DNA of 28,345 nucleotides from a virus. Positions 2-21,135 of this stretch are shown here, in pieces (position 1 is the first letter of the stretch; each line of letters starts with the position of its first letter). The notes below the pieces were generated by a model. That model made no database searches, had not been told where the DNA came from, and was given only the letters and a program-made list of their open reading frames with translations. The translations under genes and the position numbers were made by a program. The stretch lies in the IMG/VR virus record IMGVR_UViG_3300027791_000101, positions 1 to 28,345 of that record, one strand, 5' to 3'.

Positions 2-940
2 GCTCAAATGGGAGCTGGTGCAGGTAGCCGTAGTAGAATTCGTAGTATGGGGGGCAAAGGTACTATTGTTAAAGTACCTGCTACTCAAAATTCTAGACGT
101 ACAGCTAAACAAACAGGTTTGAATATGGTTGTTTTTGATGATGCTATAGCAGCAGCACAGAAAAAAGCCAATACAGCAACTACAGCAGCAGCTAAAGCAG
201 CAGCAGATAAAGCCGTAGCAAAAGCTAAAGCAGCTAAAGCAGCAGCCATAGCAAAAGCTAAAGCAGATAAAGCAGCAGCAGCCAATAGAGAAAAAGGTGC
301 AGCAGCATCTAGGGCAGCAGCAGCTAAAGCAGCTAAAGATAAAAAGGCATCAGCGATTAGCTCAGCTGGAAGAGGCGGATCATCTGCAGGCAAAGGTGCT
401 GGAAACAAACAAGGACAAACTCCTGGCGGTCCAGGCAAAGGCAGACAAAGTAGTCGTGGTAACACAGGTAGTCGAGGTCCAGGTGGCAGAGGCGGTCGTG
501 GCGGCGGCGGAGGCGGCGGAGGCGGAGGCCAAGGCGGTGGTTCTGGAGGTTGCTTTGTAGCTAACACTTTAGTTGAAATGCTAGACGGTTCTGAGAAACG
601 CATCATAGACATTAATGTTGGTGAGCATACTAAAGGTGGTATTGTAGAAGCTAAGATGGAATTTATTCCACAAAGTATATACAACTATAAAGATGTTAAA
701 GTATCTGGTTCACATTTAGTAATAGAAGATGGCAAGTTTGTTAAGGTAGAAGATAGTAAGCATGGAGTTCTAACTAATAATGTAGAGAGTGTGTACTGTT
801 TTGAAACATCAGCAAATAGAATATGGGTTAAAGGCATTGAGTTTGGAGATTACCTAACAGGTTCCGATGAACAATGGCAGCCACATATAGATGTTATGCT
901 AGATACTATTAATAAACAAATCCAGGCTGTTGCTAACTAA
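2..940 (+). CDS. Gly-rich protein with C-terminal Hint (hedgehog/intein-type) domain, copy 1, probably 5'-truncated by the window
   Basis: The reading frame is open from base 2. The first ATG is at base 8, but no ribosome binding site can be seen, so the gene probably begins upstream. Numbering from that Met: residues 45-115 are an Ala/Lys tract of helical, histone-H1-tail-like composition; residues 120-181 are Gly-rich with several Arg-Gly-Gly motifs and a run of ten Gly; residues 182-310 are a Hint-like domain. Hint features seen: Gly-Cys junction at Cys182, an early DG-x-x-K-x-I strand, and a block-B-like GSH with His236. I see no Asn/His splice pair at the end, so hedgehog-like cleavage or transfer of the N-terminal part is more likely than splicing (inference). 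About two thirds of the first 105 Hint residues match the second copy at 6922-8385, without gaps. The substrate and acceptor are unknown. Confidence 0.8.
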   Translation, partial: AQMGAGAGSRSRIRSMGGKGTIVKVPATQNSRRTAKQTGLNMVVFDDAIAAAQKKANTATTAAAKAAADKAVAKAKAAKAAAIAKAKADKAAAANREKGAAASRAAAAKAAKDKKASAISSAGRGGSSAGKGAGNKQGQTPGGPGKGRQSSRGNTGSRGPGGRGGRGGGGGGGGGGQGGGSGGCFVANTLVEMLDGSEKRIIDINVGEHTKGGIVEAKMEFIPQSIYNYKDVKVSGSHLVIEDGKFVKVEDSKHGVLTNNVESVYCFETSANRIWVKGIEFGDYLTGSDEQWQPHIDVMLDTINKQIQAVAN

Positions 941-1071
941 TGACAATGCCGTTTTCTGAACTAACTGATCTGCTTAATAAAAGATCAAAAGAGCAGACTA
1001 AAGCTAGAAGAGAACGATTTAAAGACAGAGTTAAAAAAAAGCAAGCATGGCAAAAAGCAAAAGCACAGTAA
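940..1071 (+). CDS. Small highly basic protein, 43 residues
   Basis: The ATG at 940 shares its A with the stop codon of the Hint gene (TAATG), and the ORF ends at 1071, inside the start of the next gene. The product begins MTMPFSELTDLLNKRSKEQT and is then almost entirely Lys/Arg/Gln, probably helical. The second Met (base 946) is an alternative start. No family was recognised. The stop/start coupling and its place in a run of small basic genes support it as real. Function is unknown; nucleic-acid binding is only a guess from charge. Confidence 0.55.
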   Translation: MTMPFSELTDLLNKRSKEQTKARRERFKDRVKKKQAWQKAKAQ

Positions 1072-1229
1072 ACAAAGCAGGCAACTATACTAAACCTACC
1101 AAGAGAAAGCAAATCTTTAATCGTATTAAAGCTCAAGCATCTCATGGTACAGGTGCAGGACAGTGGTCTGCCCGTAAGGCACAAGCATTAGCCAAAGCCT
1201 ATAAAAAAGCTGGTGGCGGATATAAGTAA
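1047..1229 (+). CDS. Small Lys-rich conserved marine-phage protein, 60 residues
   Basis: The protein starts MAKSKSTVNKAGNYTKPTKR and contains an AGQWSARKAQ segment and a GGGYK C-terminus. I recognise this pattern from small proteins near the packaging genes of marine phages, but know of no assigned function. It is very basic, with no Cys and no membrane segment. It overlaps the previous ORF by 25 bases and shares one base with the next start (stop 1227-1229, ATG 1229), so translation is probably coupled. The Shine-Dalgarno sequence is weak (A-rich upstream). Confidence 0.8.
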   Translation: MAKSKSTVNKAGNYTKPTKRKQIFNRIKAQASHGTGAGQWSARKAQALAKAYKKAGGGYK

Positions 1230-1477
1230 TGGCTCTTGCAAAAAGTCAAAGAAGTTTAAAGTCTTGGGGTAAACAGGATTGGCGAACTAAGTCAGGAAAG
1301 AAATCTTCTGTAACTGGTGAACGTTATCTACCTGCAAAAGCAATCAAGGCATTATCTTCTTCTGAATATGCAGCCACTACAAAAGCCAAAAGAAAAGCAA
1401 AGGCAAAAGGTAAACAAGTTGCAAAGCAGCCAAAAACCATAGCCAAGAAAGTAAAGCAATATAGGAAGATAACGTAA
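1229..1477 (+). CDS. Small basic protein, DUF5872-like
   Basis: 82 residues, with a KSWGKQDWRTKSGK segment near the start, a TGERYLPAKAIKALSSSEYA core and a Lys-rich end containing KQPKTIAKK. The pattern matches, from memory, a small phage and environmental family of unknown function that I believe is DUF5872; a Pfam search should confirm the number. It is coupled to both neighbours by TAATG overlaps. Strong positive charge and conserved Trp and Tyr residues suggest a small folded nucleic-acid or scaffold-associated protein, but no activity can be assigned. Confidence 0.8.
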   Translation: MALAKSQRSLKSWGKQDWRTKSGKKSSVTGERYLPAKAIKALSSSEYAATTKAKRKAKAKGKQVAKQPKTIAKKVKQYRKIT

Positions 1478-1743
1478 TGGCTAAGTCACCTGCATGGACT
1501 AGAAAAGAAGGCAAGAGTCCCGAAGGGGGACTGAATGCTAAAGGTCGTGCAAGTTATAATAAAGGCAAAACCAAAACGGGAAAGAAACGTAACCTTAAAG
1601 CTCCAAGTAAAGTTAAAGGTAATAAAAGACGAGCATCATTCTGTGCTAGAATGAAAGGCATGAAGAAAAAATTAACATCAAAAAAAACAGCAAATGATCC
1701 TAACTCTAGGATTAATAAATCATTAAGAGCATGGAATTGCTAA
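1477..1743 (+). CDS. Small basic protein, DUF6321-like
   Basis: 88 residues starting MAKSPAWTRKEGKSPEGGLN, with RRASFCARMKGMKKK in the middle and ending SLRAWNC. The WxRKEGK-(N/S)P-xGGLNxKGR and RRxSFCARM elements match a small phage family I recall as DUF6321, of unknown function. The two Cys (in SFCAR and at the C-terminus) are conserved in the relatives I remember and may pair or bind metal (inference). It starts in a TAATG overlap with the previous gene and is the third of three consecutive small basic conserved genes. Confidence 0.8.
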   Translation: MAKSPAWTRKEGKSPEGGLNAKGRASYNKGKTKTGKKRNLKAPSKVKGNKRRASFCARMKGMKKKLTSKKTANDPNSRINKSLRAWNC

Positions 1744-1753
1744 AGGAGATAAT

Positions 1754-1861
1754 ATGAAAAAAATAATGTGGATTAAAGATAAAGTTATGGCTATGCCTAA
1801 ACATAAACAAATTGCTTTGGCTATTTGTGTTGTAGCTATAGTTATTGTTGTATGCTTCTAG
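1754..1861 (+). CDS. 35-residue single-pass membrane protein
   Basis: A strong ribosome binding site, AAGGAG at 1743-1748, lies five bases before the ATG. The product has a basic N-terminus (MKKIMWIKDKVMAMPKHKQ) followed by about 15 hydrophobic residues (IALAICVVAIVIVVCF), so a single membrane helix fills the C-terminal half. Its last ten bases overlap the small terminase start. It could be a small holin-like or other membrane peptide. It has too few residues for family assignment, but the clean SD and the membrane pattern make it a credible gene. Confidence 0.65.
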   Translation: MKKIMWIKDKVMAMPKHKQIALAICVVAIVIVVCF

Positions 1862-2235
1862 ACAAAAAAGAAACAACAGAGTTAACAGAAAAACAACAAG
1901 AGTTTCTCTCTGCTTTATTTGGTGAAGCCCAAGGTGATCCAAGAACTGCAGCAGAGATTGCAGGCTATGCTCCCACCTCATATCCGAAAGTGGTGCAAGG
2001 TTTAAAAAACCAAATCATAGAACGTGCCGAAACGGTATTAGCAGCTCACTCACCGAAAGCTGCCTTAAGCATAGCCAACGCAATAGACGATGATGGCTCT
2101 ATACCAGGAGCAAGTATTAGAATGGAAGCAGCTAAACAAGTGTTAGATAGAGTAGGTTTAGTTAAAAGAGAAAAATTAGATATTAATGCCAAAGTAGCCC
2201 ATGGTATTTTTATACTGCCAGCCAAAGAAGCATAA
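1852..2235 (+). CDS. terS: Terminase small subunit
   Basis: Start chosen at ATG 1852 (127 residues, MLLDKKETTELTEKQQEF) because the longer ATG at 1825 adds only nine unlikely residues lying inside the upstream membrane gene. No SD is visible, so coupling to the upstream gene is likely. Residues 10-60 form a predicted helix-turn-helix region (LTEKQQEFLSALFGEAQGDP, then AAEIAGYAPTSYPKVV), followed by helical oligomerisation-type sequence (RMEAAKQVLDRVGLVKREKL) and a short hydrophobic tail ending in LPAKEA. This layout is typical of phage small terminases that recognise the packaging site on concatemeric DNA. Its place shortly before the large subunit supports the call. Confidence 0.8.
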   Translation: MLLDKKETTELTEKQQEFLSALFGEAQGDPRTAAEIAGYAPTSYPKVVQGLKNQIIERAETVLAAHSPKAALSIANAIDDDGSIPGASIRMEAAKQVLDRVGLVKREKLDINAKVAHGIFILPAKEA

Positions 2236-2336
2236 TGAAAAATATAGTATACAAGATATTTATTTGGTCAGGAAAAATACATAGTTGGTCGTGGACAATG
2301 TTATATGGGAAACGAAACAATGAGTCTAGGTCATAG
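2235..2336 (+). CDS. Small hypothetical protein, 33 residues
   Basis: The ATG at 2235 overlaps the terminase small subunit stop (TAATG). The product starts MKNIVYKIFIWSGKIHSWSW and ends with a short basic tail. It is aromatic-rich and could sit at a membrane surface. It overlaps the next gene start by 32 bases in another frame. Without this ORF, 69 bases between terS and the HTH-like gene would be unexplained. Function is unknown and it may be spurious. Confidence 0.4.
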   Translation: MKNIVYKIFIWSGKIHSWSWTMLYGKRNNESRS

Positions 2337-2553
2337 AAAAAGAATTGCAAGAACTGTTCCATTTGGATACAAAGTAAGTGAACAAGACGATAAGTTATTA
2401 GAGCCGATCCAAGAGGAACTCGAAGCTATAGAACAAGCAAAACAATATATTAAAAGTTGTTCCTATCGAGAAGTTGCTGGATGGATGGAAAAGAAAACAG
2501 GCAGATATATATCTGCACCAGGTTTAAGAAAGGTATTATCAAGAAGTGAATGA
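2305..2553 (+). CDS. Small HTH-like protein upstream of terminase
   Basis: 82 residues with a PFGYK motif near the start, an acidic linker (LLEPIQEELEAIEQAKQYIK), then a helix-turn-helix-like block (CSYREVAGWMEKKTGRYISA, PGLRKVL). The pattern resembles the short recombinase-linker/HTH region of serine recombinases (PFGY followed by S-x-R-E-(V/I)-A), but there is no catalytic domain, so it is not a recombinase. From memory, in some marine phages a similar segment sits at the N-terminus of the large terminase; here it is a separate ORF overlapping the terL start by eight bases. A role in DNA binding during packaging is an inference. Confidence 0.7.
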   Translation: MGNETMSLGHRKRIARTVPFGYKVSEQDDKLLEPIQEELEAIEQAKQYIKSCSYREVAGWMEKKTGRYISAPGLRKVLSRSE

Positions 2554-4165
2554 TATACCACCACCTAAACCTAAACATAAAAAGGTTATAGCCAAAGCTA
2601 AACGATCAGCTAAAGCTAGCATTAGTGATATAGCTAAACAAGTACAGAAAGCTAAAGATGATTATCATAATGCACAAAAAAAATTAAAGAATAAAAAAGA
2701 AGCTATTAAAAAAATTGATGGTGTACTAGAAAACAAACAAAATATAATTGTAGAAGATGATCTAGACATCTTACCACCAAACGTAAAAAAAGTAGTAGAA
2801 GAACAAGAAGTTATATTTGAACCAAACAGTGGACCTCAAACACAATTCTTAGCTGCATCTGAACGAGAGGTATTTTATGGTGGTGCAAGGGGTGGTGGTA
2901 AATCATATGCAATGCTTATTGATCCATTACGTTATTGTGATAAACAAAAACATAGATGTCTATTGCTTAGACGTTCTATGCCAGAGTTAAGAGATTTAAT
3001 TAATCACTCACAACAACTATACCCTAAAGCGTATCCTGGTGCTAAATGGAGAGAGCAAGAAAAAGAATGGAGATTTCCATCAGGAGCAAAAATAGAATTT
3101 GGATATGCTGAAAATACTACTGACGTACTTAGATATCAAGGTCAATCTTACACCTGGATTGGAGTGGATGAACTTCCCCAATATCCTAATGCAGATATCT
3201 ACAACTTTTTAAGATCATCTCTTAGATCTGTAGATCCTGAGATACCAGTATTTATGAGAGCTACAGGGAATCCAGGGAACATAGGTTCAGGCTGGGTAAA
3301 AGAAATGTTTGTTGATCCTGCTGTTCCTAATACAAGATTTGATATTGAGATACAAACACCAGTAGGTGTAAGAAAAATAACTAGAAGATTTATACCCGCT
3401 AAGTTACAAGATAATCCATACTTGATGCAAACAGAGGATTATTATATTATGCTAGCCTCTTTACCAGAGGTACAAAGGAAGCAATTCTTAGATGGTGATT
3501 GGAGTGCATATGAAGATGCTGCATTTCCTGAGTTTAATAAGGTAAATCATGTTGTAGAACCATTTGATATACCTAGTAATTGGCATAAGTTTAGAGCATG
3601 TGACTGGGGTTACTCTTCTCCTGCTTGTGTACTCTGGTTCGCTATAGACTTTGACGATAACTTGTATGTCTATAGAGAACTGTATACAAAAAAAGTAGTA
3701 GCAGATATATTTGCTAATCAAGTTTTAAATTTAGAATACAATGAGTATATTAGATACGGTGTTCTAGATTCAAGTACATGGGCACGAAGAGGTGATGTCG
3801 GTCCAAGTATTGCAGAGACAATGATCAATGCAGGATGCAGATGGCGACCATCTGATAGATCACCAAGAAGTCGTATAAATGGTAAACTAGAAATACACAA
3901 AAGGTTATCAGTTAGAGATACTAATGATGGAGATAAACCATCTCTATTTATTTTTAATAACTGTATTAACTTAATACGAACACTACCTCTACTACCGTGT
4001 GATAAAAACAATCCAGAGGATGTTGATACTCACACAGAAGACCACGCATATGATGCGTTAAGATACGGATGTATGTCTCGCCCCATTAATCCCCATGGTC
4101 ATGGTTACTCATCATTTAATAATGGAAGTAACTATACACCATCTGATAAAATGTTTGGATATTAA
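2546..4165 (+). CDS. terL: Terminase large subunit (packaging ATPase-nuclease)
   Basis: 539 residues. The only usable start in the open frame is GTG at 2546; the frame is closed upstream at 2525-2527 and the first internal ATG lies beyond the ATPase motif. Residues 1-90 are a Lys-rich, coiled-coil-like extension. The ATPase domain has Walker A GGARGGGKS (112-120), Walker B WIGVDE (Asp208/Glu209) and a coupling motif RATGNPG (238-244). The RNase H-like nuclease has acidic candidates Asp353 (ACDWG), Asp408 (VLDSS) and Asp503 (EDHAYDALRYG). The enzyme pumps DNA through the portal and cuts it. It overlaps the HTH-like gene by eight bases and is followed directly by the metallopeptidase gene. Confidence 0.95.
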   Translation: MNDIPPPKPKHKKVIAKAKRSAKASISDIAKQVQKAKDDYHNAQKKLKNKKEAIKKIDGVLENKQNIIVEDDLDILPPNVKKVVEEQEVIFEPNSGPQTQFLAASEREVFYGGARGGGKSYAMLIDPLRYCDKQKHRCLLLRRSMPELRDLINHSQQLYPKAYPGAKWREQEKEWRFPSGAKIEFGYAENTTDVLRYQGQSYTWIGVDELPQYPNADIYNFLRSSLRSVDPEIPVFMRATGNPGNIGSGWVKEMFVDPAVPNTRFDIEIQTPVGVRKITRRFIPAKLQDNPYLMQTEDYYIMLASLPEVQRKQFLDGDWSAYEDAAFPEFNKVNHVVEPFDIPSNWHKFRACDWGYSSPACVLWFAIDFDDNLYVYRELYTKKVVADIFANQVLNLEYNEYIRYGVLDSSTWARRGDVGPSIAETMINAGCRWRPSDRSPRSRINGKLEIHKRLSVRDTNDGDKPSLFIFNNCINLIRTLPLLPCDKNNPEDVDTHTEDHAYDALRYGCMSRPINPHGHGYSSFNNGSNYTPSDKMFGY

Positions 4166-4534
4166 ATGGAATTAGACAATAAAAAATTAAGAGTTGGATT
4201 TCAAGATCTAACTATTAAAGTAGAAAATCCTGATTTTAAAAAGGATAACTTAACAGATTGTTATGGACAGTATTTACAAAGAGAAAATGCTATTCAAATC
4301 AATGCAGGTTTAGAAACTCATGATTTACTAAATACAGTAATACATGAAATTTTTCATTCTTGCGTATACGTTAGTGGACTAACCCAAAAAGATAATCCAC
4401 TTGCAGACGATGAAAAGGAAGAGACTGTAGTTAATAACTTAGCCAATACCTTTCATGTTGTTATAAGAGACAACCCATGGCTTCTTAAATTTATGCAAGA
4501 AGCTGTAAACAAAACAAAAACTAAGGAGAAATAA
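4166..4534 (+). CDS. Putative zinc metallopeptidase (HExxH)
   Basis: 122 residues; the ATG follows the terL stop with no gap. HEIFH at 60-64, preceded by hydrophobic LLNTVI, is a classic zincin motif: His60 and His64 as ligands, Glu61 as base. A third ligand could be Glu85 or Glu86 in DEKEETVVNNLANTF, about 20 residues on, as in minimal gluzincin-like phage and ImmA/SprT-type proteins. It has no signal peptide. Location between terminase and portal suggests a virion or assembly protease acting on a head protein, or an anti-host factor; its target is unknown. A separate HK97-type capsid protease was not found in the window. Confidence 0.75.
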   Translation: MELDNKKLRVGFQDLTIKVENPDFKKDNLTDCYGQYLQRENAIQINAGLETHDLLNTVIHEIFHSCVYVSGLTQKDNPLADDEKEETVVNNLANTFHVVIRDNPWLLKFMQEAVNKTKTKEK

Positions 4535-4717
4535 ATGCCAAATATAATGCAAAAATATAAACAAGGCGATCTTGATGAGACTACTACTAGCTTAGAAAGA
4601 CCTGCTAACAATATGCCTGCTGTTGAAGAAGGTGGAAAAAACGAAGATGCATCTAAAGTAAAAACTAATATGGTCGATGGAAAAATATTTTCTATGGCTG
4701 ACGAACGAGACTACTAA
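4535..4717 (+). CDS. Small acidic hypothetical protein, 60 residues
   Basis: Starts MPNIMQKYKQGDLDETTTSL after an AAGGAG ribosome binding site at 4523-4528, and ends MADERDY. It is hydrophilic, rich in Asp/Glu/Asn and probably disordered, with no recognised family. It lies between the metallopeptidase and portal genes, 17 bases before the portal ATG. It may be a small head-assembly accessory; nothing in the sequence says more. Confidence 0.65.
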   Translation: MPNIMQKYKQGDLDETTTSLERPANNMPAVEEGGKNEDASKVKTNMVDGKIFSMADERDY

Positions 4718-4734
4718 AATAGTTAGGAAACTTA

Positions 4735-6894
4735 ATGGCTAAGATAGATCTATCCGATGACGAAGTTGTAGGAGTAGAAGAACAAGGTAAAGATGATTCT
4801 GTTAGAAATGATTTTTCTAGTCTAGAAGGTGTCATTAAGTCTCGTTTTTTAAAAGCAGAAGATGCTAGGTACTTTGATGAAAGTAGATGGCTAACAGCAT
4901 ACAGAAACTATAGAGGAATCTATGGTGCTGATATGTCTTTTACAGAAAGAGAAAAGTCTAGAGTCTTTGTTAAAATAACTAAAACAAAAGTTCTAGCAGC
5001 GTTTGGTCAATTGATTGAAGTACTATTTTCAAGTGGTGGCTTTCCAATTGGTGTAGATCATACACCCATACCTGATGGTATAGCAGAATTTGCTAGAGTA
5101 AAAGGTGAAGACGAAGAAGAAAAGCCATTACAAAGAGATGAAAGTAATATAGTAGATCTATATGGTTTTCCTGGTGATGGTAAAGAAATTGCAGCAGGAA
5201 CAACTACAGCTGATTTATTGCGTGGATTATCAAAAGATTATGAAGGTATAGACTTTGCAGAAGGTCCATCACCTGATTCTCCTAATACTCCACATATTGA
5301 GCCAGCACGAGAGGCTGCTGCTAATTTACAAAAGCTAATAAACGATCAATTAGATGAAACATCAGCTATAACAGTACTAAGACATGTTCTATTTGAGATG
5401 GTATTACTGGGTACTGGAGTACTAAAAGGACCATTTACAGATGAAAAAGTCTTACATAGCTGGGATAAAGATGAAGAAACTGAAGAACAAGTATATAATC
5501 CTAAACTTAAAACAGTACCTAAGTTAGAAGCTGTAAGTATATGGGATTTTTATCCTGATCCAGATGCTACTAATGTAGATGATTGTGATTATGTAATACA
5601 AAGGCATTCTTTTAATAGAGGACAGTTAAGGGGATTAGCTAAAAGACCATTCTTTAGACCTGATGCTATATCAGAATGTTTAAAAATGGGTGCTAACTAT
5701 GAAGTAAGAGGTTTTGAAACTTCATTACTTGATAGAGAAAATGTAGATGATCTTCAAAAAAATAGATTTGAAGTATATGAATACTGGGGCACAATGGATA
5801 AAGAACTTGCTGAAGAAGCAGGTCTTGAGTTTAGCTCAGAACTAGAAGCATTAGATGAAATACAGATTAATGCATGGATATGTAATGGAAAATTATTAAG
5901 ATTAGTATTAAATCCATTTACTCCTGATAGAATACCCTATCATATTTGTCCTTATGAAATAAATCCGTATCAATTTTTTGGTGTGGGTATACCAGAAAAT
6001 ATGGAAGATGCACAAATGGTAATGAATGGTCATGCAAGAATGGCTATTGATAACTTAGCATTAGCTGGTAATTTAGTATTTGATATAGATGAAACCCAAT
6101 TGGTACCAGGTCAAGACATGTCTATATATCCTGGTAAAATATTTAGAAGACAGTCTGGAGTAACAGGAACTGCAATTAACGGCATTAAGTTTCCAAGCAC
6201 AGCAACAGAAAATTTACAAATGTTTGATAAGTTTAGACAGTTAGCAGATGAATCTACAGGTATACCTTCGTACTCTCATGGTGCAACTGGAGTACAATCA
6301 ACAACAAGAACTGCAGCAGGTATGTCCATGCTTATGGGTGCAGCTGCATTAAGTATTAAAACAGTAGTAAAAAATATAGATGATTATTTATTAAGGCCCC
6401 TTGGTGAATCTTTATTTGCATGGAATATGCAATTTAATAACAGCATGGAATCAATAAAAGGCGACTTACAAATTAAAGCAATGGGAACATCTTCGTTAAT
6501 GCAGAAAGAAGTTAGATCACAAAGACTAATGACATTTATGCAAACTGCGAACAATCCTAATATTGCACCATTTGTAAGATGGCATTCAGTACTTAAAGAA
6601 ATTGCTAAATCGTTAGATATTGATCCAGATCAATTAATCAATGATCCAGAGAATGCACAAATTTTTGCTAAAATAATGGGGATGACAAATGGAAATCAAC
6701 AAACTACAGGCCCTGGTGAACAACCACCAGGCATGGGTCCTGCTGGAGGAGTACCTCCAGGAGCAAATCCAGCAGACGCAACGGGAGCTGGAGGTGGCAA
6801 CATCGGAGCTGGAAGTGTACCGCAGCCAGGGGAAGATCAGTTCGCTGCGCAAGCTGCTGTGCCTCAAGGATCAAATCAAAACCAACAAGGATAA
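4735..6894 (+). CDS. Portal protein (head-tail connector)
   Basis: 719 residues; the call rests on size, position after the terminase and before scaffold and capsid genes, and the overall pattern. Residues 40-100 (RWLTAYRNYRGIYG, then KITKTKVLAAFGQLIEVLF) resemble the helical start of short-tailed phage portals. A central section has IWDFYPDPDATNVDDCDYVI, a wing-type element typical of these portals, and residues 420-560 are helical with MVMNGHARMAIDNLALAGN. From about residue 650 the tail is Gly/Pro/Gln-rich and probably disordered. Portals form the dodecameric DNA channel at one capsid vertex. It has only a weak SD (TAGGAAA). Confidence 0.85.
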   Translation: MAKIDLSDDEVVGVEEQGKDDSVRNDFSSLEGVIKSRFLKAEDARYFDESRWLTAYRNYRGIYGADMSFTEREKSRVFVKITKTKVLAAFGQLIEVLFSSGGFPIGVDHTPIPDGIAEFARVKGEDEEEKPLQRDESNIVDLYGFPGDGKEIAAGTTTADLLRGLSKDYEGIDFAEGPSPDSPNTPHIEPAREAAANLQKLINDQLDETSAITVLRHVLFEMVLLGTGVLKGPFTDEKVLHSWDKDEETEEQVYNPKLKTVPKLEAVSIWDFYPDPDATNVDDCDYVIQRHSFNRGQLRGLAKRPFFRPDAISECLKMGANYEVRGFETSLLDRENVDDLQKNRFEVYEYWGTMDKELAEEAGLEFSSELEALDEIQINAWICNGKLLRLVLNPFTPDRIPYHICPYEINPYQFFGVGIPENMEDAQMVMNGHARMAIDNLALAGNLVFDIDETQLVPGQDMSIYPGKIFRRQSGVTGTAINGIKFPSTATENLQMFDKFRQLADESTGIPSYSHGATGVQSTTRTAAGMSMLMGAAALSIKTVVKNIDDYLLRPLGESLFAWNMQFNNSMESIKGDLQIKAMGTSSLMQKEVRSQRLMTFMQTANNPNIAPFVRWHSVLKEIAKSLDIDPDQLINDPENAQIFAKIMGMTNGNQQTTGPGEQPPGMGPAGGVPPGANPADATGAGGGNIGAGSVPQPGEDQFAAQAAVPQGSNQNQQG

Positions 6895-6921
6895 TAAGAG
6901 TAGAGGATATTTTAAATCAAA

Positions 6922-8385
6922 ATGACAGTACAAGCTAACCCACCATTACCAGATCCAGTAACAGGCAGAATGCCTGCATACTCACAAGTAATGCAACAAA
7001 ATAGTAATGGCCAGTGGGTTATTATGTACGATGTACAAAACGTACAGACTACTTCTACAACAGGAACTATAGCTCCTTTACCTGGACCAGGAGTACCTTC
7101 TGTTCCAGATATAGAAACTCCTATAACAACATTCCCAGAACCAGGAGATCCAGAAATAATATACCCAGAACCTACTCCTTTTCCTATAGATCCCGAACCT
7201 GTTCCAGTAGATCCTGGGCCTGTGTTTGGAGGTGGTGGCCGTGATAATAGAGATAATATGGGACCAACAGGACCAGGAGCAGTGTCAATAGGTGGTGGTT
7301 GGTTTGATGGAGAAACAGGACAGCCATATGGAAAAATTGCAACCGCAGCATATAATGGACTTACAGGTAACATACCTGGATTAGGATCAATAAGTGTAGT
7401 TGGAAAAATTGTAGGGGCATTGGCTAAAGCAAATATGAATAACGCAATTGCATCTATGACAGATGAAGCTAGATCAGCTATGTTTGGCAGTGAAATAGGA
7501 AAAAAAACATTAAGTAAAATGACAGTTGCAGAACGTAGTAAATTAAAAAAATCTTTACAAGCTAAAATGACAAAGAAAAAGAAAGGTTTAAACGTAGGCT
7601 TTGATGTACACCCAAATTATTCTTATGATGAAAATCAACGTAATATGAGAGATGTTTCTGGTGAAGTAGATTTAGATAAATCTGCTGGTACTGATAGTAA
7701 CTATGGTGGTACAGGAAGTACAGTAACAGGTAGTCGAGGGCCAGGAGGAGCTGCAGCTAGACAAAAAGGTGGTCCAAGTGGAGGAACAGGAAGTACAGGA
7801 ACAGGAAGTACAGGAACAGGAAGTACAGGAACAGGAAGTGCAGGACCAGGAGGTGCAGGAGGTAGACAAAAAGGTGGACCTTCAGGCGGAACATCACCAG
7901 GAAGTAAAAGCAGAGATGGCGGTAATCCAGGAGGTAACTCTAGTGGCGGTGGATCAGGAGGTTCAGGTGGATCAGGAGGTTCAGGTGGATCAGGAGGATG
8001 TTTTGTTAAAGGAACTACAATTCAAATGGCTGACGGCACTACAAAAGAAATTACAACTATTAAAGTTGGTGAGGAGACTAGAGGTGGTATTGTACAGGCT
8101 AGAATGGAATTTATGCCACAGAGTATATACAATTACCAAGGAGTATTAGTTTCTGGATCCCACTGGGTAATAGAAGATAATCAATTTATTGAAGTAGAAG
8201 ATAGTAAACATGGAGTCCTTACAGATAAAATAGAACCTGTGTATACCTTTAAAACTTCAGACAATAGAATATGGATTAACGATATAGAATTTGGAGATTT
8301 TGAAACAGGATCTGATGATGACTGGGCACCATACTTTGAACAAGTTAAACAAGATCTAAATAAAAAATTACGAGGAGAAGCATAA
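6922..8385 (+). CDS. Gly/Pro-rich protein with C-terminal Hint (hedgehog/intein-type) domain, copy 2
   Basis: 487 residues in four parts: 1-100 Pro-rich; 100-245 a mixed region with a short hydrophobic stretch (GLGSISVVGKIVGALAKANM) and a Lys-rich patch; 245-359 a low-complexity Gly/Ser/Thr arm built from tandem TGTGS and GGS units; 360-487 a Hint-like domain. The Hint domain begins at a Gly-Cys junction (Cys360), has ADGTTKEI, and a GSH motif with His414, matching copy 1 closely. The final 25 residues are a helical tail after the GSDDDW segment, and I see no His-Asn splice pair. The expected chemistry is an N-to-S acyl shift at Cys360 that could release or transfer the arm. The gene lies between the portal and scaffold genes, so the product may be a virion or assembly protein. 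SD is weak. Confidence 0.85.
   Translation: MTVQANPPLPDPVTGRMPAYSQVMQQNSNGQWVIMYDVQNVQTTSTTGTIAPLPGPGVPSVPDIETPITTFPEPGDPEIIYPEPTPFPIDPEPVPVDPGPVFGGGGRDNRDNMGPTGPGAVSIGGGWFDGETGQPYGKIATAAYNGLTGNIPGLGSISVVGKIVGALAKANMNNAIASMTDEARSAMFGSEIGKKTLSKMTVAERSKLKKSLQAKMTKKKKGLNVGFDVHPNYSYDENQRNMRDVSGEVDLDKSAGTDSNYGGTGSTVTGSRGPGGAAARQKGGPSGGTGSTGTGSTGTGSTGTGSAGPGGAGGRQKGGPSGGTSPGSKSRDGGNPGGNSSGGGSGGSGGSGGSGGSGGCFVKGTTIQMADGTTKEITTIKVGEETRGGIVQARMEFMPQSIYNYQGVLVSGSHWVIEDNQFIEVEDSKHGVLTDKIEPVYTFKTSDNRIWINDIEFGDFETGSDDDWAPYFEQVKQDLNKKLRGEA
7783..7839 (+). repeat. Tandem 15-bp repeats encoding TGTGS units
   Basis: Near-perfect tandem copies of an AGT-ACA-GGA-ACA-GGA unit, about three and a half copies, coding a Gly/Thr/Ser arm in the second Hint protein. 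The copies are identical at DNA level, implying recent slippage expansion. Confidence 0.9.
7948..7998 (+). repeat. Tandem 18-bp repeats encoding GGSGGS linker just before the Hint cysteine
   Basis: Two perfect 18-bp units (GGT-GGA-TCA-GGA-GGT-TCA) and a partial third one run up to the Cys360 codon at 7999. This gives a flexible Gly-Gly-Ser arm directly at the predicted cleavage junction. Confidence 0.9.
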
Positions 8386-14140: not shown

Positions 14141-17100
14141 ATGGCAGGCTACTCAGCTCGACAGAGCTCATATTCAAGTGGAGATACTATTAACGCTGCA
14201 CATAGTAATGATGAATTTAATACTATATTAGCAGCATTTAATGTATCAACAGGACACACACATGACGGCAGTAGTGCTGGTGATGGTGGCCCTATATCTA
14301 ATCTATTTAGTAATGCACTAGTATTTGGTACTAATGCAAATACAGATATAGCAATTACATTTAATGCTACTAGTAATGATGGTGTATTAACATGGATGGA
14401 AGACGAAGATTACTTCCAGTTCTCTGATGATATATTATTAGCAACTACAGAAAAATTACAGTTTAGAGACACTGCTGTATATATTAACTCATCTGCAGAT
14501 GGTCAACTAGACTTAGTGGCAGATACAGAAATACAAATAGCAGCTACTACAGTAGATATTAATGGTGCAGTAGACATATCTGGCAACTTAGGAGTTGGTG
14601 GTAATCTAACAGTAACAGGTACTACGACTTTTAACGGTGGTACACTTACTTTAGGAAACTCAGCAGGTGACAATGTTGTATTTGGTGCTGACGTAGACTC
14701 TAGTATTATACCTGATGATGATGATACTTATGACCTTGGTAGTTCTTCACAAGAATGGAGAAACTTATTTATTGATGGTACAGCTAATATAGATAGCCTT
14801 GTAGCTGATACAGCAGATATTAATGGTGGTACTATTGACGGTGCAGTTATTGGTGGTGCAAGTGCAGCTGCCATAACAGGTACAGCAATTACTGGTACTA
14901 GTTTTGTTATAGGTTCCGCAGACATTGGAGAAGCAGAACTAGAAATATTAGATGGTGCTACGCTTTCAACTGATGAGATTAATCTCCTTGATGGCGTTAC
15001 AGCTACAACTGCAGAGTTAAATATTTTAGATGGTGTTACAGCAAGTGCAACAGATATTAATCTTATTGATGGAATAACCAACGGAACAGTAATAGCAAGT
15101 AAGGCTATTATAACAGATTCAAACAAAGACATAACTGGTGGTAGAAATATTACTATTAGTGGAGAACTTGATGCAGCTACTTTAGATATATCAGGTAATG
15201 CTGATATTAACGGAACTACAAACTTAGACGTAGTAGATATAGATGGTGCTGTTGACATGGCTACAACTCTTACTGTAGCAGGTAACGTAGACTTTAATGG
15301 TGATTTAGATGTAGATGGAACATTAGAAACAGATGCCCTTACTATTGCTGGCGTAACTCTAGCAGAAACAATTAGTGATACTGTAGGAGCTATGGTAACA
15401 AGCAATACTGAATCAGGTATTACAGTAGCTTATCAAGATGCAGATAATACATTAGACTTTACAATCGGTACACTTAACCAAGATACAAGTGGTACAGCAG
15501 CAATAGCCACAACAGTTACTATTACAGACAACGAAAACACAAACGAAAACAACGCAATTATCTTTACATCTGGTGGAGACTTAGATGGTGGTAACTTAGG
15601 TTTAGAATCAGATGGTGATTTAAAATACAATCCAAGCACAGGAACATTAAGTGTACCTAACGTATCAGTAAGTGGTACATTTAGTACGGTTAATAGTGTT
15701 ACTATGGATGCTAACAATGCTGTAATCTTTGAAGGATCAACGGCTGATGCTCACGAAACAACCTTAACATCTATTGATGCTACAGATGATAGAACAATAT
15801 CTCTACCTAACGTATCAGGTACAATTCCTGTATTAGCTGTAGCAAGTAATACACAAATTACTTCTACACCTGAAGAGTTAAATGCCTTAGACGGTATTAC
15901 TGCAGTAGTCGGAGAGCTTAATGCTCTTGACATAGGCTCTACAGCTGTTGGTACAGCAGTAGCTTCTAAAGCAGTTATATTAGATTCTAACAAAGATTAT
16001 ACAGGCATAAGAAACTTAACAATTACTGGTGAGCTAGATGCAGCTACACTAGACATTTCAGGTGCAATAGACGTAGCTGGAACATCAAACTTAGACATAG
16101 TGGATATAGACGGTGCTGTTGATATGGCTTCTACCCTTCAAGTTGATGGTGTAGCTACTTTTACTGGCAGAGATATTCATAGTGGTGGCATTACTATTGC
16201 CAATGCAGGACAAATTGGCTCAGTTGGAGATACTGATGCAATCGCAATCGCAAGTGATGGAGTTGTTACTCTCACACAAAAATTAGTAGGTACTGAATTA
16301 GACATCTCAGGCAACATAGACGTAAACGGAACATCAAACCTAGACGTAGTAGATATAGACGGAGCTGTAGATATGGCAACTACACTTACACTTGCTGGTA
16401 ATGCAGACTTTAATGGTGATTTAGATGTTGACGGTACTACTAACCTTGATGTCGTAGACATTGATGGTGCGGTAGACATGGCTACTACACTAGCAGTAAC
16501 AGGTATTGCTACTTTTACAGATGATATAATTATAGGTGATGGCAAAACTATTGGTTCTGCTTCAGATGTTGATGCAATAACAATCGCTGCAAACGGACAA
16601 CTAACACTTACACAAACATTAATAGGTACAGCATTAGACATATCTGGTGATGCTGACATTGATGGTACACTAGAAGCTGACGCTATAACAGTTGATGGTA
16701 CTGCACTAGCTACAGTTATTGCAGGAACAACAGTCACTAACACAACAAACTCTGCTCACGTTCTAGTAACTGACAATGAAAGCACAAATGAAGAAAATCT
16801 TATTGCTTTTGTAGAAGGTGCAACATCAAGTACAGGTAATGTTGGACTAGAAATGGATGGCAATTTTGCGTATAACCCAAGTACAGGTACAGTTTCAGCT
16901 ACTATATTTAAAGGCAATATTGATGCAGTTGATGGAGACTTTGATGGTACTCTTGAGGCTGATGCGATAACTATAGGGGGTACAGCTATTGGTTCTATTT
17001 ATAGTGTTATAGCAGGTAGCTCTAGTATTGTAACAACTGGTGCTTTAAATAGTGGATCTATTACTTCTGGTTTTGGAACCATTAATAATGGGGCATCTGC

Positions 17101-18958
17101 TATTACAACTACTGGTACAGTTAATTTTGGTAGCCTAGCTGACGGAACCATAACAGTTACAGCATTTGTAGACGAAGATGATATGAGTACAAATTCAGCT
17201 ACATTAGTACCTACCCAGCAGTCTGTAAAGGCTTATGTAGACGCAAATGCTGGTGGGGGTTTATCGTTAATTGATGAAGATAATATGGCTAGTGATTCTG
17301 CTGGTAGACCACCAAGTCAACAGTCTGTAAAGGCTTTTGTGACTGGATTAACAGGGGGTAACATTGTTGCAACTGGAGCATTAAATTCAGGCTCAGTTAC
17401 ATCAGGATTTGGAAACATAGATACAGGATCATCTACAATTACAACAACAGGTTTAATTAGTGGTGGTTCTTTAGATATTGATAATGTTTTAATTAATGGC
17501 ACAACAATAGGACATACAGATGATACCGATTTAATAACTGTAGCAGATGGTTTAGTAACTGTTGCTGGTGAAATATCAGTAACTACATTAGATATTGGAG
17601 GTACTAATGTATCTTCAACTGCAGCAGAATTAAATATCCTTGATGGAGTAACTTCAACGGCAGCAGAACTAAACATCTTAGATGGTGTTACTTCTACAGC
17701 CGCAGAACTTAATATACTCGATGGAGTAACTTCAACTGCAGCAGAATTAAATGCTTTAGATGGCATTACCGCAGTTGTAGGTGAGCTAAATGCTCTTGAT
17801 ATAGGATCTACGGCTGTAGGAACTGCTGTAGCTTCTAAGGCTGTTATACTAGATTCAAATAAAGATTATACTGGAATTAGAAATTTAACTGTATCTGGTG
17901 AACTTGATGCAGCTACTGGTGATTTTAGTGGTAACGTAGATATAGATGGTACATTAGAAGCTGATGCCATTACTGTAAACGGTACAGCATTGGCTGAAGT
18001 TATTTCTGATACTGTTGGAGCTATGGTAAGTTCTAACACTGAGTCAGGAATTACAGTAGCCTATCAAGATGCAGACAATACTCTAGACTTTACAGTTGGA
18101 ACTCTTAACCAAAACACTACAGGTTCGGCAGCTACTTTAACAACAGCAAGAACTATTGGTGGCGTAAGTTTTAATGGTAGTGCAAATATTAATTTACCAG
18201 GTGTAAATGCAGCAGGTAACCAAAATACTTCAGGTTCAGCAGCTACTTTAACAAATGCTAGAACAATTGGTGGTGTTTCGTTTAACGGTTCTGCTAATAT
18301 TAACTTACCTGGCGTAAATGCAGCAGGTAACCAAAATACTTCAGGTACTGCAGCTACAGTAACTACTGCAGCTCAATCAAACATTACATCATTAGGCACA
18401 CTAACAACTTTAACAGTTGATGATATAACTATAAATGGTAGTACAATATCAGATGGTGGTGATCTTACACTTGATGTAGATGGAGATATTATATTAGATG
18501 CTAATGGTGGTGACATATTTTTTAAAGACAATGGTACTACATTTGGTAGTGCAACTAATACTTCAGGAAATTTAATAATTAAATCAGGCACAACTACTGC
18601 CGCCACTTTTAGTGGAGCTAATGTAACACTTGCAGGTACTGTAGGATCGGGTGCAATAACTAGTTCTGGAAACATCACAGCCTTTAGTGACCAACGATTA
18701 AAATCAGACATCAAAACAATAGATAATGCCTTAGACAAAGTGTCTAAAATGAGAGGTGTTATGTTTATTAAAGATGGAGAACTATCTAGTGGTGTTATAG
18801 CACAAGAGATGGAACAAGTTGCTCCTGAATTAGTTATGGATGGAGAATATAAATCAGTAGCTTATGGCAATATAGTTGGTTATCTTATTGAATCAATTAA
18901 AGAATTAAAAGCTGAAGTCACAAACTTAAAATGCAGAAAAGAATGTGAGTGTAACTAA
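14141..18958 (+). CDS. Large repetitive tail fibre with C-terminal S74 self-cleaving chaperone
   Basis: 1605 residues, the largest complete protein here. An AGGAGG sits ahead of the ATG. The N-terminus (MAGYSARQSSYSSGDTINAA, with HTHDGSSAGDGGP) is a virion-attachment type seen in marine phages. Residues 50-1500 are beta-helix-like repeats: NLDVVDIDGAVDMATTL units, AELNILDGVT units (four in tandem from residue 1160), and GVSFNGSANINLPG units. Residues 1516-1605 are the intramolecular chaperone of peptidase family S74: SDQRLKSDI with Ser1516 and Lys1521 as the expected catalytic pair, then GVIAQEMEQVAPELV and a coiled-coil end. Self-cleavage before Ser1516 should release the chaperone after trimer folding. 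The fibre presumably determines host range. Confidence 0.9.
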   Translation: MAGYSARQSSYSSGDTINAAHSNDEFNTILAAFNVSTGHTHDGSSAGDGGPISNLFSNALVFGTNANTDIAITFNATSNDGVLTWMEDEDYFQFSDDILLATTEKLQFRDTAVYINSSADGQLDLVADTEIQIAATTVDINGAVDISGNLGVGGNLTVTGTTTFNGGTLTLGNSAGDNVVFGADVDSSIIPDDDDTYDLGSSSQEWRNLFIDGTANIDSLVADTADINGGTIDGAVIGGASAAAITGTAITGTSFVIGSADIGEAELEILDGATLSTDEINLLDGVTATTAELNILDGVTASATDINLIDGITNGTVIASKAIITDSNKDITGGRNITISGELDAATLDISGNADINGTTNLDVVDIDGAVDMATTLTVAGNVDFNGDLDVDGTLETDALTIAGVTLAETISDTVGAMVTSNTESGITVAYQDADNTLDFTIGTLNQDTSGTAAIATTVTITDNENTNENNAIIFTSGGDLDGGNLGLESDGDLKYNPSTGTLSVPNVSVSGTFSTVNSVTMDANNAVIFEGSTADAHETTLTSIDATDDRTISLPNVSGTIPVLAVASNTQITSTPEELNALDGITAVVGELNALDIGSTAVGTAVASKAVILDSNKDYTGIRNLTITGELDAATLDISGAIDVAGTSNLDIVDIDGAVDMASTLQVDGVATFTGRDIHSGGITIANAGQIGSVGDTDAIAIASDGVVTLTQKLVGTELDISGNIDVNGTSNLDVVDIDGAVDMATTLTLAGNADFNGDLDVDGTTNLDVVDIDGAVDMATTLAVTGIATFTDDIIIGDGKTIGSASDVDAITIAANGQLTLTQTLIGTALDISGDADIDGTLEADAITVDGTALATVIAGTTVTNTTNSAHVLVTDNESTNEENLIAFVEGATSSTGNVGLEMDGNFAYNPSTGTVSATIFKGNIDAVDGDFDGTLEADAITIGGTAIGSIYSVIAGSSSIVTTGALNSGSITSGFGTINNGASAITTTGTVNFGSLADGTITVTAFVDEDDMSTNSATLVPTQQSVKAYVDANAGGGLSLIDEDNMASDSAGRPPSQQSVKAFVTGLTGGNIVATGALNSGSVTSGFGNIDTGSSTITTTGLISGGSLDIDNVLINGTTIGHTDDTDLITVADGLVTVAGEISVTTLDIGGTNVSSTAAELNILDGVTSTAAELNILDGVTSTAAELNILDGVTSTAAELNALDGITAVVGELNALDIGSTAVGTAVASKAVILDSNKDYTGIRNLTVSGELDAATGDFSGNVDIDGTLEADAITVNGTALAEVISDTVGAMVSSNTESGITVAYQDADNTLDFTVGTLNQNTTGSAATLTTARTIGGVSFNGSANINLPGVNAAGNQNTSGSAATLTNARTIGGVSFNGSANINLPGVNAAGNQNTSGTAATVTTAAQSNITSLGTLTTLTVDDITINGSTISDGGDLTLDVDGDIILDANGGDIFFKDNGTTFGSATNTSGNLIIKSGTTTAATFSGANVTLAGTVGSGAITSSGNITAFSDQRLKSDIKTIDNALDKVSKMRGVMFIKDGELSSGVIAQEMEQVAPELVMDGEYKSVAYGNIVGYLIESIKELKAEVTNLKCRKECECN
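15371..15487 (+). repeat. 39-codon fibre duplication, copy A
   Basis: Encodes ISDTVGAMVTSNTESGIT, then VAYQDADNTLDFTIGT. The second copy is at 18002-18118. The proteins differ at only a few residues (Thr/Ser, Ile/Val, Asp/Asn), while the DNA differs at many silent positions. Confidence 0.9.
15875..16048 (+). repeat. 58-codon fibre duplication, copy A
   Basis: Encodes ELNALDGITAVVGELNALDI followed by GSTAVGTAVASKAVILDSNK and a GELDAAT end. The second copy is at 17744-17917. 56 of 58 residues are the same, but 29 codons differ silently (counted by eye). Confidence 0.95.
17618..17773 (+). repeat. Four tandem 13-residue AELNILDGVT repeats
   Basis: 39-bp units begin at 17618, 17657, 17696 and 17735. 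Units 1-3 code the same 13 residues (TAAELNILDGVTS), but with different codons for Thr, Leu, Asn, Ile, Gly, Val and Ser. Unit 4 is a variant (NALDGITA). Confidence 0.95.
17744..17917 (+). repeat. 58-codon fibre duplication, copy B
   Basis: The partner of 15875-16048; the two amino acid changes are Ile-Thr to Val-Ser near the end. The last tandem repeat above forms its start. Confidence 0.95.
18002..18118 (+). repeat. 39-codon fibre duplication, copy B
   Basis: The partner of 15371-15487. Both copies lie about 85-130 codons beyond an ELNxLDG-type region, so larger blocks may have been duplicated together. Confidence 0.9.
18203..18346 (+). repeat. 33-bp exact direct repeat in fibre, 111 bp apart
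   Basis: The run starting GTAAATGCAGCAGGTAACC is identical at 18203-18235 and 18314-18346, inside two 37-residue GVSFNGSANINLPG units. The upstream halves of the same units differ at silent sites. Confidence 0.85.
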
Positions 18959-19473: not shown

Positions 19474-20655
19474 ATGAATATACTTTTTATAGAATACGAC
19501 TCTCAACACTTTCATCAACAAGTTAAATTAGTTGATGGCGGACATAATGTATGGTCTACTTGGAGTAATAAAGAATACCATACAAAATTTGGAATACAGA
19601 ATTGTGACAGTGGTAATTGGACAACGTGGACAGAAAGTAGTTATCAGTCTTTGACCAATAAAATTACTAGTTTAAGTATCGATACAGTTATTTTAGGTAT
19701 ACCTTGGTTACATTGGTTGCGTGGGGTAATGCCCGAAGGAGTAACCTTTTTAGCCGCTACAGAAGATGCATTTAAACTAGAGACTGATAAATTTGCAACT
19801 AGGACTGCAGTTGGTAACTTAGGTTTAAATGTATTAGATGTTGTAGGACAAGGAAAAACAGATGCTTTTGATTTATCTGGGTATTCAGTAAGGCCTGTTA
19901 TAGTTAAGCCTAAAAATAGTTTTGTAGGTACTTATGTTATTTATGAAAATCAAGACGCAGCAGCTATTGCACACTTTGACAATTTTACTGAATCACAACA
20001 TTATGATTATTATTTAGAAAAATTTTTACCAAACATGAAATTAGAGGCAGAGGTACATTTTATTATTGCTAATGATAAATGGGCTATTTACTATACTGGA
20101 GAAATGCAAAACGAAATAGATCGTAGAACATTTATTAAAAATAAAGCTACCTCTCCTTGGATAAATGATGTAGTCCTTAAAAAACTTTCTTCAGATATTA
20201 ACACAAAAGTATTAGCAGCAGCCAAAACTTTTTTAGATTGGGCTGTTACAAAAGGTGGTAACTATTGTGGCTCAATAAATTTTGGAGTTGATAATAGTGA
20301 TGAACTTTATTGGATTGAATGTAATGCTAGAAAAGATGCTTATAGTTGTTTGCCGTGTAATATATCTGGAAGTGATTATCTTGCGGCACTAACTACAGAT
20401 CCTGATAAATATGTAACCGATATAAGCCAATGGACATTTACTACAGTAGCATCCACAATAGATAATTCTCCTATTCAGGAGTATCCATTTAACTTACATG
20501 CTGAATATGAAGTTGATCCACCAAACTGTTTGCTTAAACAGGAAGATAAATACAGGACTAATCATGGTGGAATAGTTATATATTCTCAAGGAGATCTTCC
20601 TACAGAATTTGTTACTAAATTAACTGCAGATGGAAAATATAAAATTGTATCGTAA
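19474..20655 (+). CDS. ATP-grasp enzyme, PurD-like
   Basis: 393 residues. Residues 1-100 are a Rossmann-like preATP-grasp domain (MNILFIEYDS, then SIDTVILGIP). The ATP-grasp fold follows: FKLETDKFATRTAVGNLGLN (100-119) matches the linker of phosphoribosylglycinamide synthetases, VIVKPKNSFVG has the nucleotide-binding Lys145, YYLEKFLP has Glu182, and WIECNAR has the metal-binding Glu282 and Asn284 and Arg286. These enzymes activate a carboxylate with ATP and join it to an amine or thiol. Purine synthesis is unlikely for a lone gene between fibre and methyltransferase genes; ligation of an amino acid or peptide is an alternative. No Shine-Dalgarno sequence is visible. Substrate unknown. Confidence 0.8.
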   Translation: MNILFIEYDSQHFHQQVKLVDGGHNVWSTWSNKEYHTKFGIQNCDSGNWTTWTESSYQSLTNKITSLSIDTVILGIPWLHWLRGVMPEGVTFLAATEDAFKLETDKFATRTAVGNLGLNVLDVVGQGKTDAFDLSGYSVRPVIVKPKNSFVGTYVIYENQDAAAIAHFDNFTESQHYDYYLEKFLPNMKLEAEVHFIIANDKWAIYYTGEMQNEIDRRTFIKNKATSPWINDVVLKKLSSDINTKVLAAAKTFLDWAVTKGGNYCGSINFGVDNSDELYWIECNARKDAYSCLPCNISGSDYLAALTTDPDKYVTDISQWTFTTVASTIDNSPIQEYPFNLHAEYEVDPPNCLLKQEDKYRTNHGGIVIYSQGDLPTEFVTKLTADGKYKIVS

Positions 20656-20664
20656 TTAATAAAA

Positions 20665-21135
20665 ATGTTTTATTATAAGGTAGAGAATAGAAAATCACCA
20701 ATACAAGGAGAGGGTCTATACACATTAGATGATATTAAAAAGGGCAGTATTATTTTTTATTGGGGATCAGATCAAGATAGGATCATTAATGAAGCTACCT
20801 ATTTAAAAAAACGAAAAGATGTGTCTGATAATATATTTCAAAAAACATCTGGTAGATGGGTACACAATAAATTTTTACACTGCAAAGAATGGGGCCTTGA
20901 TTGCTATATGAATCATTCTTACAGCCCTAATATACTATACTATTGTGGTATTGGCTTTGCAAAAAAAGACATTAAAAAAAATGAAGAGCTATTTATAAAT
21001 TTTCAATACCTTTTATCAGATAAAGACTCTGCATGTTTTACAGATATAGAAACTAATAGGCAAGTTATAGGGTTAGATAATGACGAATGCTTAAAAGAAT
21101 CATCTAAAGAATTAATCTTATTACTTAATAAATAA
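20665..21135 (+). CDS. SET-domain protein (predicted protein-lysine methyltransferase)
   Basis: 156 residues, close to a minimal SET domain. Motifs in order: SPIQGEGLYTLDDIKKGSII (11-30; the G-x-G-L-(Y/F) AdoMet loop), CYMNHSYSPNILYY (80-93; the NHS-x-x-PN pseudoknot motif) and DIKKNEELFINFQY (102-115; the GEEL-x-x-x-Y motif with Tyr115). No post-SET cysteine cluster is seen. SET proteins transfer methyl groups from S-adenosylmethionine to lysine side chains. It lies 9 bases after the ATP-grasp gene, again without a visible SD, so the two are probably co-expressed. The substrate is unknown: a virion protein, one of the Lys-rich phage proteins or a host protein are options. Confidence 0.8.
   Translation: MFYYKVENRKSPIQGEGLYTLDDIKKGSIIFYWGSDQDRIINEATYLKKRKDVSDNIFQKTSGRWVHNKFLHCKEWGLDCYMNHSYSPNILYYCGIGFAKKDIKKNEELFINFQYLLSDKDSACFTDIETNRQVIGLDNDECLKESSKELILLLNK

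Follow-up and report, generated by a model that had tools for sequence, protein, structure and literature searches.

A Hint (hedgehog/intein) domain moves horizontally as a cassette between otherwise unrelated marine phages, carried on proteins of the structural gene block. Two copies lie in the window, the whole stretch of DNA analysed here, a 28.3-kb IMG/VR virus record, in genes on either side of the packaging and portal genes. In the clade nearest the window, the gene after the portal ends either in this Hint domain or in an unrelated five-helix domain, and the two modules are exchanged on one body. We give even chances, judging from sequence features, to the reading that the Hint domain of both proteins is a single-turnover N-cleaving module, resembling B-type BILs, that cuts off the arm preceding it.

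Two Hint proteins in an HMO-2011-type podovirus

The window belongs to an HMO-2011-type podovirus. Its portal is 51–64% identical to those of HMO-2011 and HTVC033P, and the nearest cultured phage by portal is pelagiphage HTVC033P, at 64%. Packaging, portal, slot (post-portal), scaffold, coat and tail genes follow an identical order in the window and in HTVC033P-type phages; portal, capsid and terminase genes and their order are common to the window and the group. We base the assignment on this closest cultured relative and on the shared gene order. The features discussed below all lie on the + strand.

8–550, +, gene 1 (H1), N-terminal body and Gly/Arg-rich arm to Gly181; basic, Ala/Lys-rich (frame open to base 2; homologue in L046)
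551–940, +, gene 1 Hint domain, Cys182 to the C-terminus, including the stop codon (58% identity to the gene 2 Hint; family alignment)
1047–1743, +, three small basic genes of 60, 82 and 88 aa, between gene 1 and the terminase genes (ORFs, synteny)
1825–6894, +, packaging and portal block (PHROGs, Pfam, HTVC033P portal identity and gene order)
1825–2235, +, small terminase candidate (position, and order in HTVC033P)
2546–4165, +, large terminase (PHROGs, Pfam)
4166–4534, +, SprT-like metallopeptidase candidate (weak, below cut-offs)
4735–6894, +, portal (64% identical to the HTVC033P portal)
6922–7998, +, gene 2 (H2), N-terminal body and Gly/Ser-rich repeat arm to Gly359 (bodies common to Hint- and helix-bearing relatives)
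7999–8385, +, gene 2 Hint domain, Cys360 to the C-terminus, including the stop codon (fold, DNA boundaries, dN/dS)

The two genes, at 8–940 and 6922–8385, and their domains lie where a preliminary description of this DNA had placed them, with the codons of the presumed nucleophiles at 551–553 (Cys182) and 7999–8001 (Cys360). That description had judged their Hint domains, of 129 residues in gene 1 and 128 in gene 2, to be roughly two thirds identical without gaps; the alignment is indeed ungapped over 129 residues, and the identity, slightly overestimated, is 58% (77% similarity, E 5e-59). A search of the whole record with one Hint domain returned the other copy at E 6.5e-52 and nothing else. 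The Gly-rich arm ahead of the Cys, the GSH motif and the missing His-Asn pair had all been read correctly, and between the N-terminal regions there is, in line with it, no significant similarity (the best match, at E 0.17, is low-complexity Gly).

Gene 1 is an accessory gene. Its slot is optional, since in relatives such as L005 and L187 the conserved neighbour is followed immediately by the small basic genes, and the gene 1 bodies of two-copy relatives have a pI of 11.8–12.0. Because its reading frame extends unbroken to base 2 of the contig, and because the L046 relative has about 45 extra N-terminal residues, gene 1 is probably truncated by the contig start, its true start lying upstream of the window. 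The 88-aa product of the small basic genes behind it is a DUF6321 protein (PF19846, E 1.5e-18). Gene order alone suggests that H1 and H2 both belong to the structural module.

The metallopeptidase candidate between large terminase and portal, SprT-like or DUF6782-like, has an HEIFH motif and is a possible protease of the virion or of the Hint proteins. The tail region encodes a lysine-methyltransferase-like SET-domain protein (20665–21135; PF00856, E 2e-10), directly preceded by a probable ATP-grasp-type protein (19474–20655; PF02786, E 0.0014, a weak match just below cut-off); the pair might act in peptide or protein modification. A repetitive tail fibre of 1605 aa (14141–18958) ends in a Peptidase_S74 self-cleaving chaperone (E 3.7e-12), and its repeats match the L132 and L012 phage groups at the DNA level.

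A predicted Hint fold with a replaced terminal motif

Structure prediction confirms, at the level of a model, the Hint superfamily fold that the preliminary description had called for the domain of both genes. AlphaFold, given a 30-row alignment, predicted the domain with a mean pLDDT of 91.4, and the top Foldseek match was BIL2 of Tetrahymena (E 1.8e-4), followed by inteins, Vint and hedgehog. In VIA-align the model superimposed on the MchDnaB-1 intein (Z 14.0, 99 residues, 1.7 Å), BIL2 (Z 13.9, 103 residues, 1.6 Å), the Clostridium BIL 2lwy (Z 12.8) and hedgehog 1at0 (Z 12.5), the matches to intein, BILs and hedgehog spanning about 100 residues at 1.6–2.0 Å. The longest listed match was to Vint 8r2c, with 115 residues at an rmsd of 3.2 Å, reaching model residue 118 inside the C-terminal helix. 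The residues of the superfamily are present too, namely an N-terminal nucleophile Cys and a block-B His.

Sequence profiles, which the preliminary description had proposed as a further check, said less. Pfam, NCBIfam and PHROGs gave block-A-level or low-complexity matches, below curated cut-offs where such exist, and matches of this kind do not by themselves prove a Hint domain. The Pfam Hint model covered block A only, below its cut-off, and Hint_2 did not appear among the Pfam matches listed, which of itself says nothing on B-type BIL membership. Sequence searches of the PDB returned chance hits such as Lmo2446 and Pizza proteins, which we set aside, the remaining matches being weak and in block A.

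The C-terminal His-Asn pair has been replaced rather than merely lost. By the VIA-align end points, model Asp101 (counting Gly as 1 and Cys as 2) coincides with the Asn that ends the inteins gp41-1 and MchDnaB-1, whose numbering we take from the alignment ranges and established knowledge. The family reads (G/A)D there in 92 of 96 members, Ser-Asp in one and Ala-Asn in two, and this conserved Gly/Ala-Asp is what argues for replacement. A Tyr or Phe follows, then a C-terminal helix of about 20 residues, and 27–34 residues separate (G/A)D from the end of the protein.

An Asp so placed (93 of 96 members, against Asn in 2 of 96) raises the idea that the domain cleaves at its C-terminal side, additionally or solely, with Asp cyclisation at (G/A)D releasing the helix; some class 1 inteins do have a C-terminal Asp (PMC7664689). 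We rate this very improbable: Gly or Ala stands in place of the penultimate His, the next residue is Tyr or Phe and offers no nucleophile, and the helix beyond the Asp is conserved within clades. The fold matches bear on another reading, in which an acceptor (an amine, sugar, lipid or virion protein) captures the thioester as in hedgehog and the arm becomes covalently attached. In hedgehog, too, the Hint is C-terminal and lacks His-Asn (PMC7664689), 1at0 is among the fold matches, and the C-terminal helix, into which the Vint match extends, could be the acceptor-binding part. No acceptor and no sterol-recognition region is found in the phage proteins, however, and acyl transfer seems improbable to us.

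A conserved family known from viral contigs

Relatives of the Hint domain occur in at least 272 IMG/VR contigs, with further loci besides, and keep its active-site residues. In a non-redundant alignment of 116 rows, a few of them distant relatives sharing mainly block A, the invariant positions are Cys1 (115 of 115), the block-B His (111 of 111), Thr6, Met10, Lys16, Ile18 and Gly24; the two residues needed for an N-to-S acyl shift, as the preliminary description had supposed, are thus present. Both are retained even by family members that share only about 41% identity with the domain of the window. In block B, the Thr of the common TxxH motif gives way to Ser or, in one large clade, to Ala. 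L065–L076, which are inteins or HN-type Hints with mainly block A in common, were left out of later counts, although some remain in the 116-row column table.

The setting of the domain is as constant as its active site. It is C-terminal in every complete member, behind an arm with a median of 30% Gly over the 40 residues before the Cys (below 15% in 3 of 104 proteins), and the residue before the Cys is mostly Gly, with Phe, Tyr or Trp in another clade. The domain is under purifying selection, with dN/dS in the Hint region of 0.04–0.18. Two Hint copies per contig, as in the window, also occur in L008 and L049.

Outside viral metagenomes we found no full relative, whether among bacteria and archaea, sampled with one genome per species for 84,980 species, or, at full length, in 50,697 records of cultured phages. 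The genome scan gave five matches, mostly of block A and therefore no bacterial member of the family, and matches in the phage records were confined to intein block A, in proteins such as UvsX and helicases. The family is thus known here from viral metagenome contigs only. The literature searched, largely open-access papers, held no account of a C-terminal Hint domain in phages of this kind, which does not prove that none exists; the words Hint and intein are absent from a comparative paper on HMO-2011-type phages (PMC9038755).

Three loci carry tandem Hints within one protein (L045:3–1001, L131:2176–3663, L143:3359–5188), in which an HN-ending, BIL-like Hint is followed by 10–19 mostly Gly residues and then by an HN-less Hint. 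hhalign joins the HN-ending and HN-less Hints through block A at 97% probability.

Could the domain be a degenerate intein, a selfish remnant without a role? Its block A matches intein-associated Hint models, and a canonical HN-ending Hint stands just upstream in three relatives. Set against this, no complete member has a C-extein, there is no endonuclease, purifying selection acts on the domain and it sits on different bodies, which leaves the idea close to refuted.

The Hint module moves as a cassette

DNA comparison and phylogeny show the Hint module moving horizontally. In L009, L010, L011, L013, L015, L016, L019, L024, L030, L034 and L047, the DNA in common with the window is the Hint module only, at 77–85% identity; L042 has, besides the module, a short segment of a small basic gene in common with the window, and L012 a segment of the tail-fibre repeat. 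In most groups the shared DNA starts at 7984–7995, on the Gly359-Cys360 codons or only a few codons ahead of them; where the match takes in the Gly arm as well, it starts at 7945. It ends at 8360–8374, so that the shared part of gene 2 is roughly 7995–8374.

The cassette lands at varied places in the gene order. Hint genes adjoin the portal in L030 and L034, stand two genes before it in L024 and L042, lie behind a tail-nozzle-like structural protein in L009–L019 and L061, follow the large terminase in L148 and precede the tail fibre J gene in L160.

In the family tree, Hints from the gene 1 and gene 2 slots are intermixed. The gene 1 Hint of L008 falls among gene 2 Hints, that of L053 stands beside the gene 2 Hints of L008, L108 and L110, and well-supported branches force at least two slot changes. 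The two window Hints are not each other's closest relatives, and the tree does not support a simple duplication between gene 1 and gene 2, so that "paralogous", the term used in the preliminary description, should not be taken to imply one. Its proposal of a reusable module on unrelated N-terminal bodies is borne out across phage loci and in the tree, with one revision, since what it presented as a feature of two paralogues is a mobile cassette of many phages.

Hint and five-helix ends alternate after the portal

In the clade of the window, the gene behind the portal has two alternative, exchangeable ends. In a sample of 80 IMG/VR loci chosen by portal alone, all 29 complete post-portal genes of the clade nearest the window have one or the other, 17 the Hint domain and 12 a five-helix domain. 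(L003, one of the 17, has a partial portal and hence falls in a lower score band of the table.) Neither end occurs in any of the 19 complete genes of a more divergent clade. Exchange is plainest between L186 and L005, whose bodies are almost identical over about 240 residues and 71% identical over 446, the end module switching through a diverged linker.

The alternative end is a domain of about 100–115 residues behind a low-complexity linker. The post-portal genes of HTVC033P and HMO-2011 also end in it, with a domain that starts (I/V)(I/V)C(T/S).

L186:3719–4054, alternative five-helix domain
L172:12185–12532, alternative five-helix domain of HMO-2011
L170:8302–8601, alternative five-helix domain of HTVC033P

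The domain is predicted to form five helices (pLDDT 90.8) and has an invariant Cys. It matches no Pfam or NCBIfam family and has no profile similarity to Hint; its model matched nothing in the PDB, which does not of itself establish a new fold. As the profile was too variable, the scan of the collection used one member. A third Cys-containing end, GGYSCYVATALNAKGYW, stands behind a Gly-containing linker in gp49 of Roseobacter phage CRP-1, its post-portal gene (L173:9757–11904).

An unrelated helical domain can take the Hint's place, and the shared function of the slot therefore need not be Hint chemistry. This counts against a purely catalytic reading and favours either docking or attachment, or two unlike solutions to one step. 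Were the Hint fold kept for docking, the two ends would act as adaptors or tips that can replace each other on a long, flexible arm and bind a partner within the head-tail connector or the host. That every complete portal-adjacent gene of the nearest clade bears one of two unrelated modules on related bodies fits this well, but docking alone does not need an invariant active-site Cys1 and block-B His. We think the docking reading rather unlikely.

Proposed N-terminal cleavage

Under the N-cleavage reading, the invariant Cys would attack the preceding Gly-Cys bond with the block-B His assisting, in an N-to-S acyl shift that would hold the arm and N-terminal body as a thioester. Water or a small thiol would then free arm and body by hydrolysis or thiolysis. 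The module would not splice, because His-Asn is absent and there is no C-extein. Composition and gene order suggest what such a cut might achieve: in gene 2 it would detach the swappable end from a portal-slot protein whose N-terminal motif is conserved, and in gene 1 it would set free a basic Gly/Arg-rich chain of the nucleic-acid-binding kind.

The evidence for N-cleavage is of several kinds. The predicted Hint fold, with its high pLDDT and its Z scores to inteins, BILs and hedgehog, is consistent with it. The invariance of Cys1 and the block-B His, the low dN/dS, the constant C-terminal place behind a flexible Gly arm and the mobility of the cassette are observed and all support it. By analogy, losing the C-terminal motif while keeping the N-terminal ones, as reviews describe for N-cleaving B-type BILs (PMC7765530) and hedgehog (PMC7664689), points the same way. 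Counting against it are the Ser or Ala at the block-B Thr, the five-helix domain that replaces the Hint in 12 of 29 complete slot genes, so that the slot can work without Hint chemistry, and the near-invariant Asp at the terminal-Asn position, which N-cleavage alone leaves unexplained.

A broader proposal treats the Hint cassette as a cleavage or acyl-transfer device functionally interchangeable with the five-helix domain, the two being unlike solutions to the same portal-adjacent maturation or attachment step in several abundant marine phage groups. We advance it tentatively and consider it rather unlikely.

HMO-2011-type phages, SAR11 phages included, are a dominant group with a wide distribution in the sea (PMC9038755). 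Their post-portal protein has had no assigned function; in the window clade it bears one of two exchangeable C-terminal modules, of which one is a Hint. A possible protein-processing step in abundant ocean viruses thereby becomes testable, by asking whether the Hint protein cuts itself at Gly-Cys. A compact N-cleaving Hint that transfers naturally could, if it is active, also be used as a module for tag release.

Comparison with known systems

With the phage domain, the superfamily of inteins, Hog, Vint and BILs gains a branch that is phage-borne, C-terminal and of the (G/A)D type. By motif definition it resembles the B-type BILs, which have the intein motifs except the C-terminal one, occur in variable non-conserved proteins and are reported to cleave N-terminally (PMC7765530). 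The phage family likewise has the Hint fold, the N-terminal Cys and the block-B His, with blocks A and B present and HN absent. Unlike B-type BILs, described from bacteria, it is found in viral contigs only, is always C-terminal and has (G/A)D in place of HN. A-type BILs share the fold, as the match to 2lwy indicates, and in L045, L131 and L143 the HN-less Hint has a BIL-like HN Hint joined to it on the upstream side; the phage domain is shorter, lacks their insertion and has no conserved C-terminal His-Asn. Class 1 inteins differ in the same terminal motif, the phage (G/A)D being followed by Tyr or Phe and by no C-extein.

Hedgehog Hog is also a C-terminal Hint without His-Asn, placed behind a body to be released, but only a C-terminal helix, of a different kind, follows the phage Hint where hedgehog has its sterol-recognition region. 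Vint of Tetrahymena (8r2c) is, like the phage domain, a Hint that is neither intein nor BIL, and the Pfam Vint model weakly matched 5 of 30 members (best E 0.0052). Vint is eukaryotic, however, and the phage bodies match no Pfam VWA domain, lack Vwaint and so do not form a VWA-Vwaint-Vint architecture.

Cultured HMO-2011-type podoviruses (HTVC033P, HMO-2011, CRP phages) have the gene order of the window, and in those read here the slot gene ends differently. PT-HINT was not among the profile matches listed for the two proteins, yet polymorphic toxins offer a parallel for the swapping of ends: in CdiA and others, the PT-HINT/BIL is the joint at which a protein with an exchangeable end processes itself (PMC4725963). 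In those toxins the Hint precedes the variable C-terminal domain, whereas in the phage proteins the Hint is itself the swappable end.
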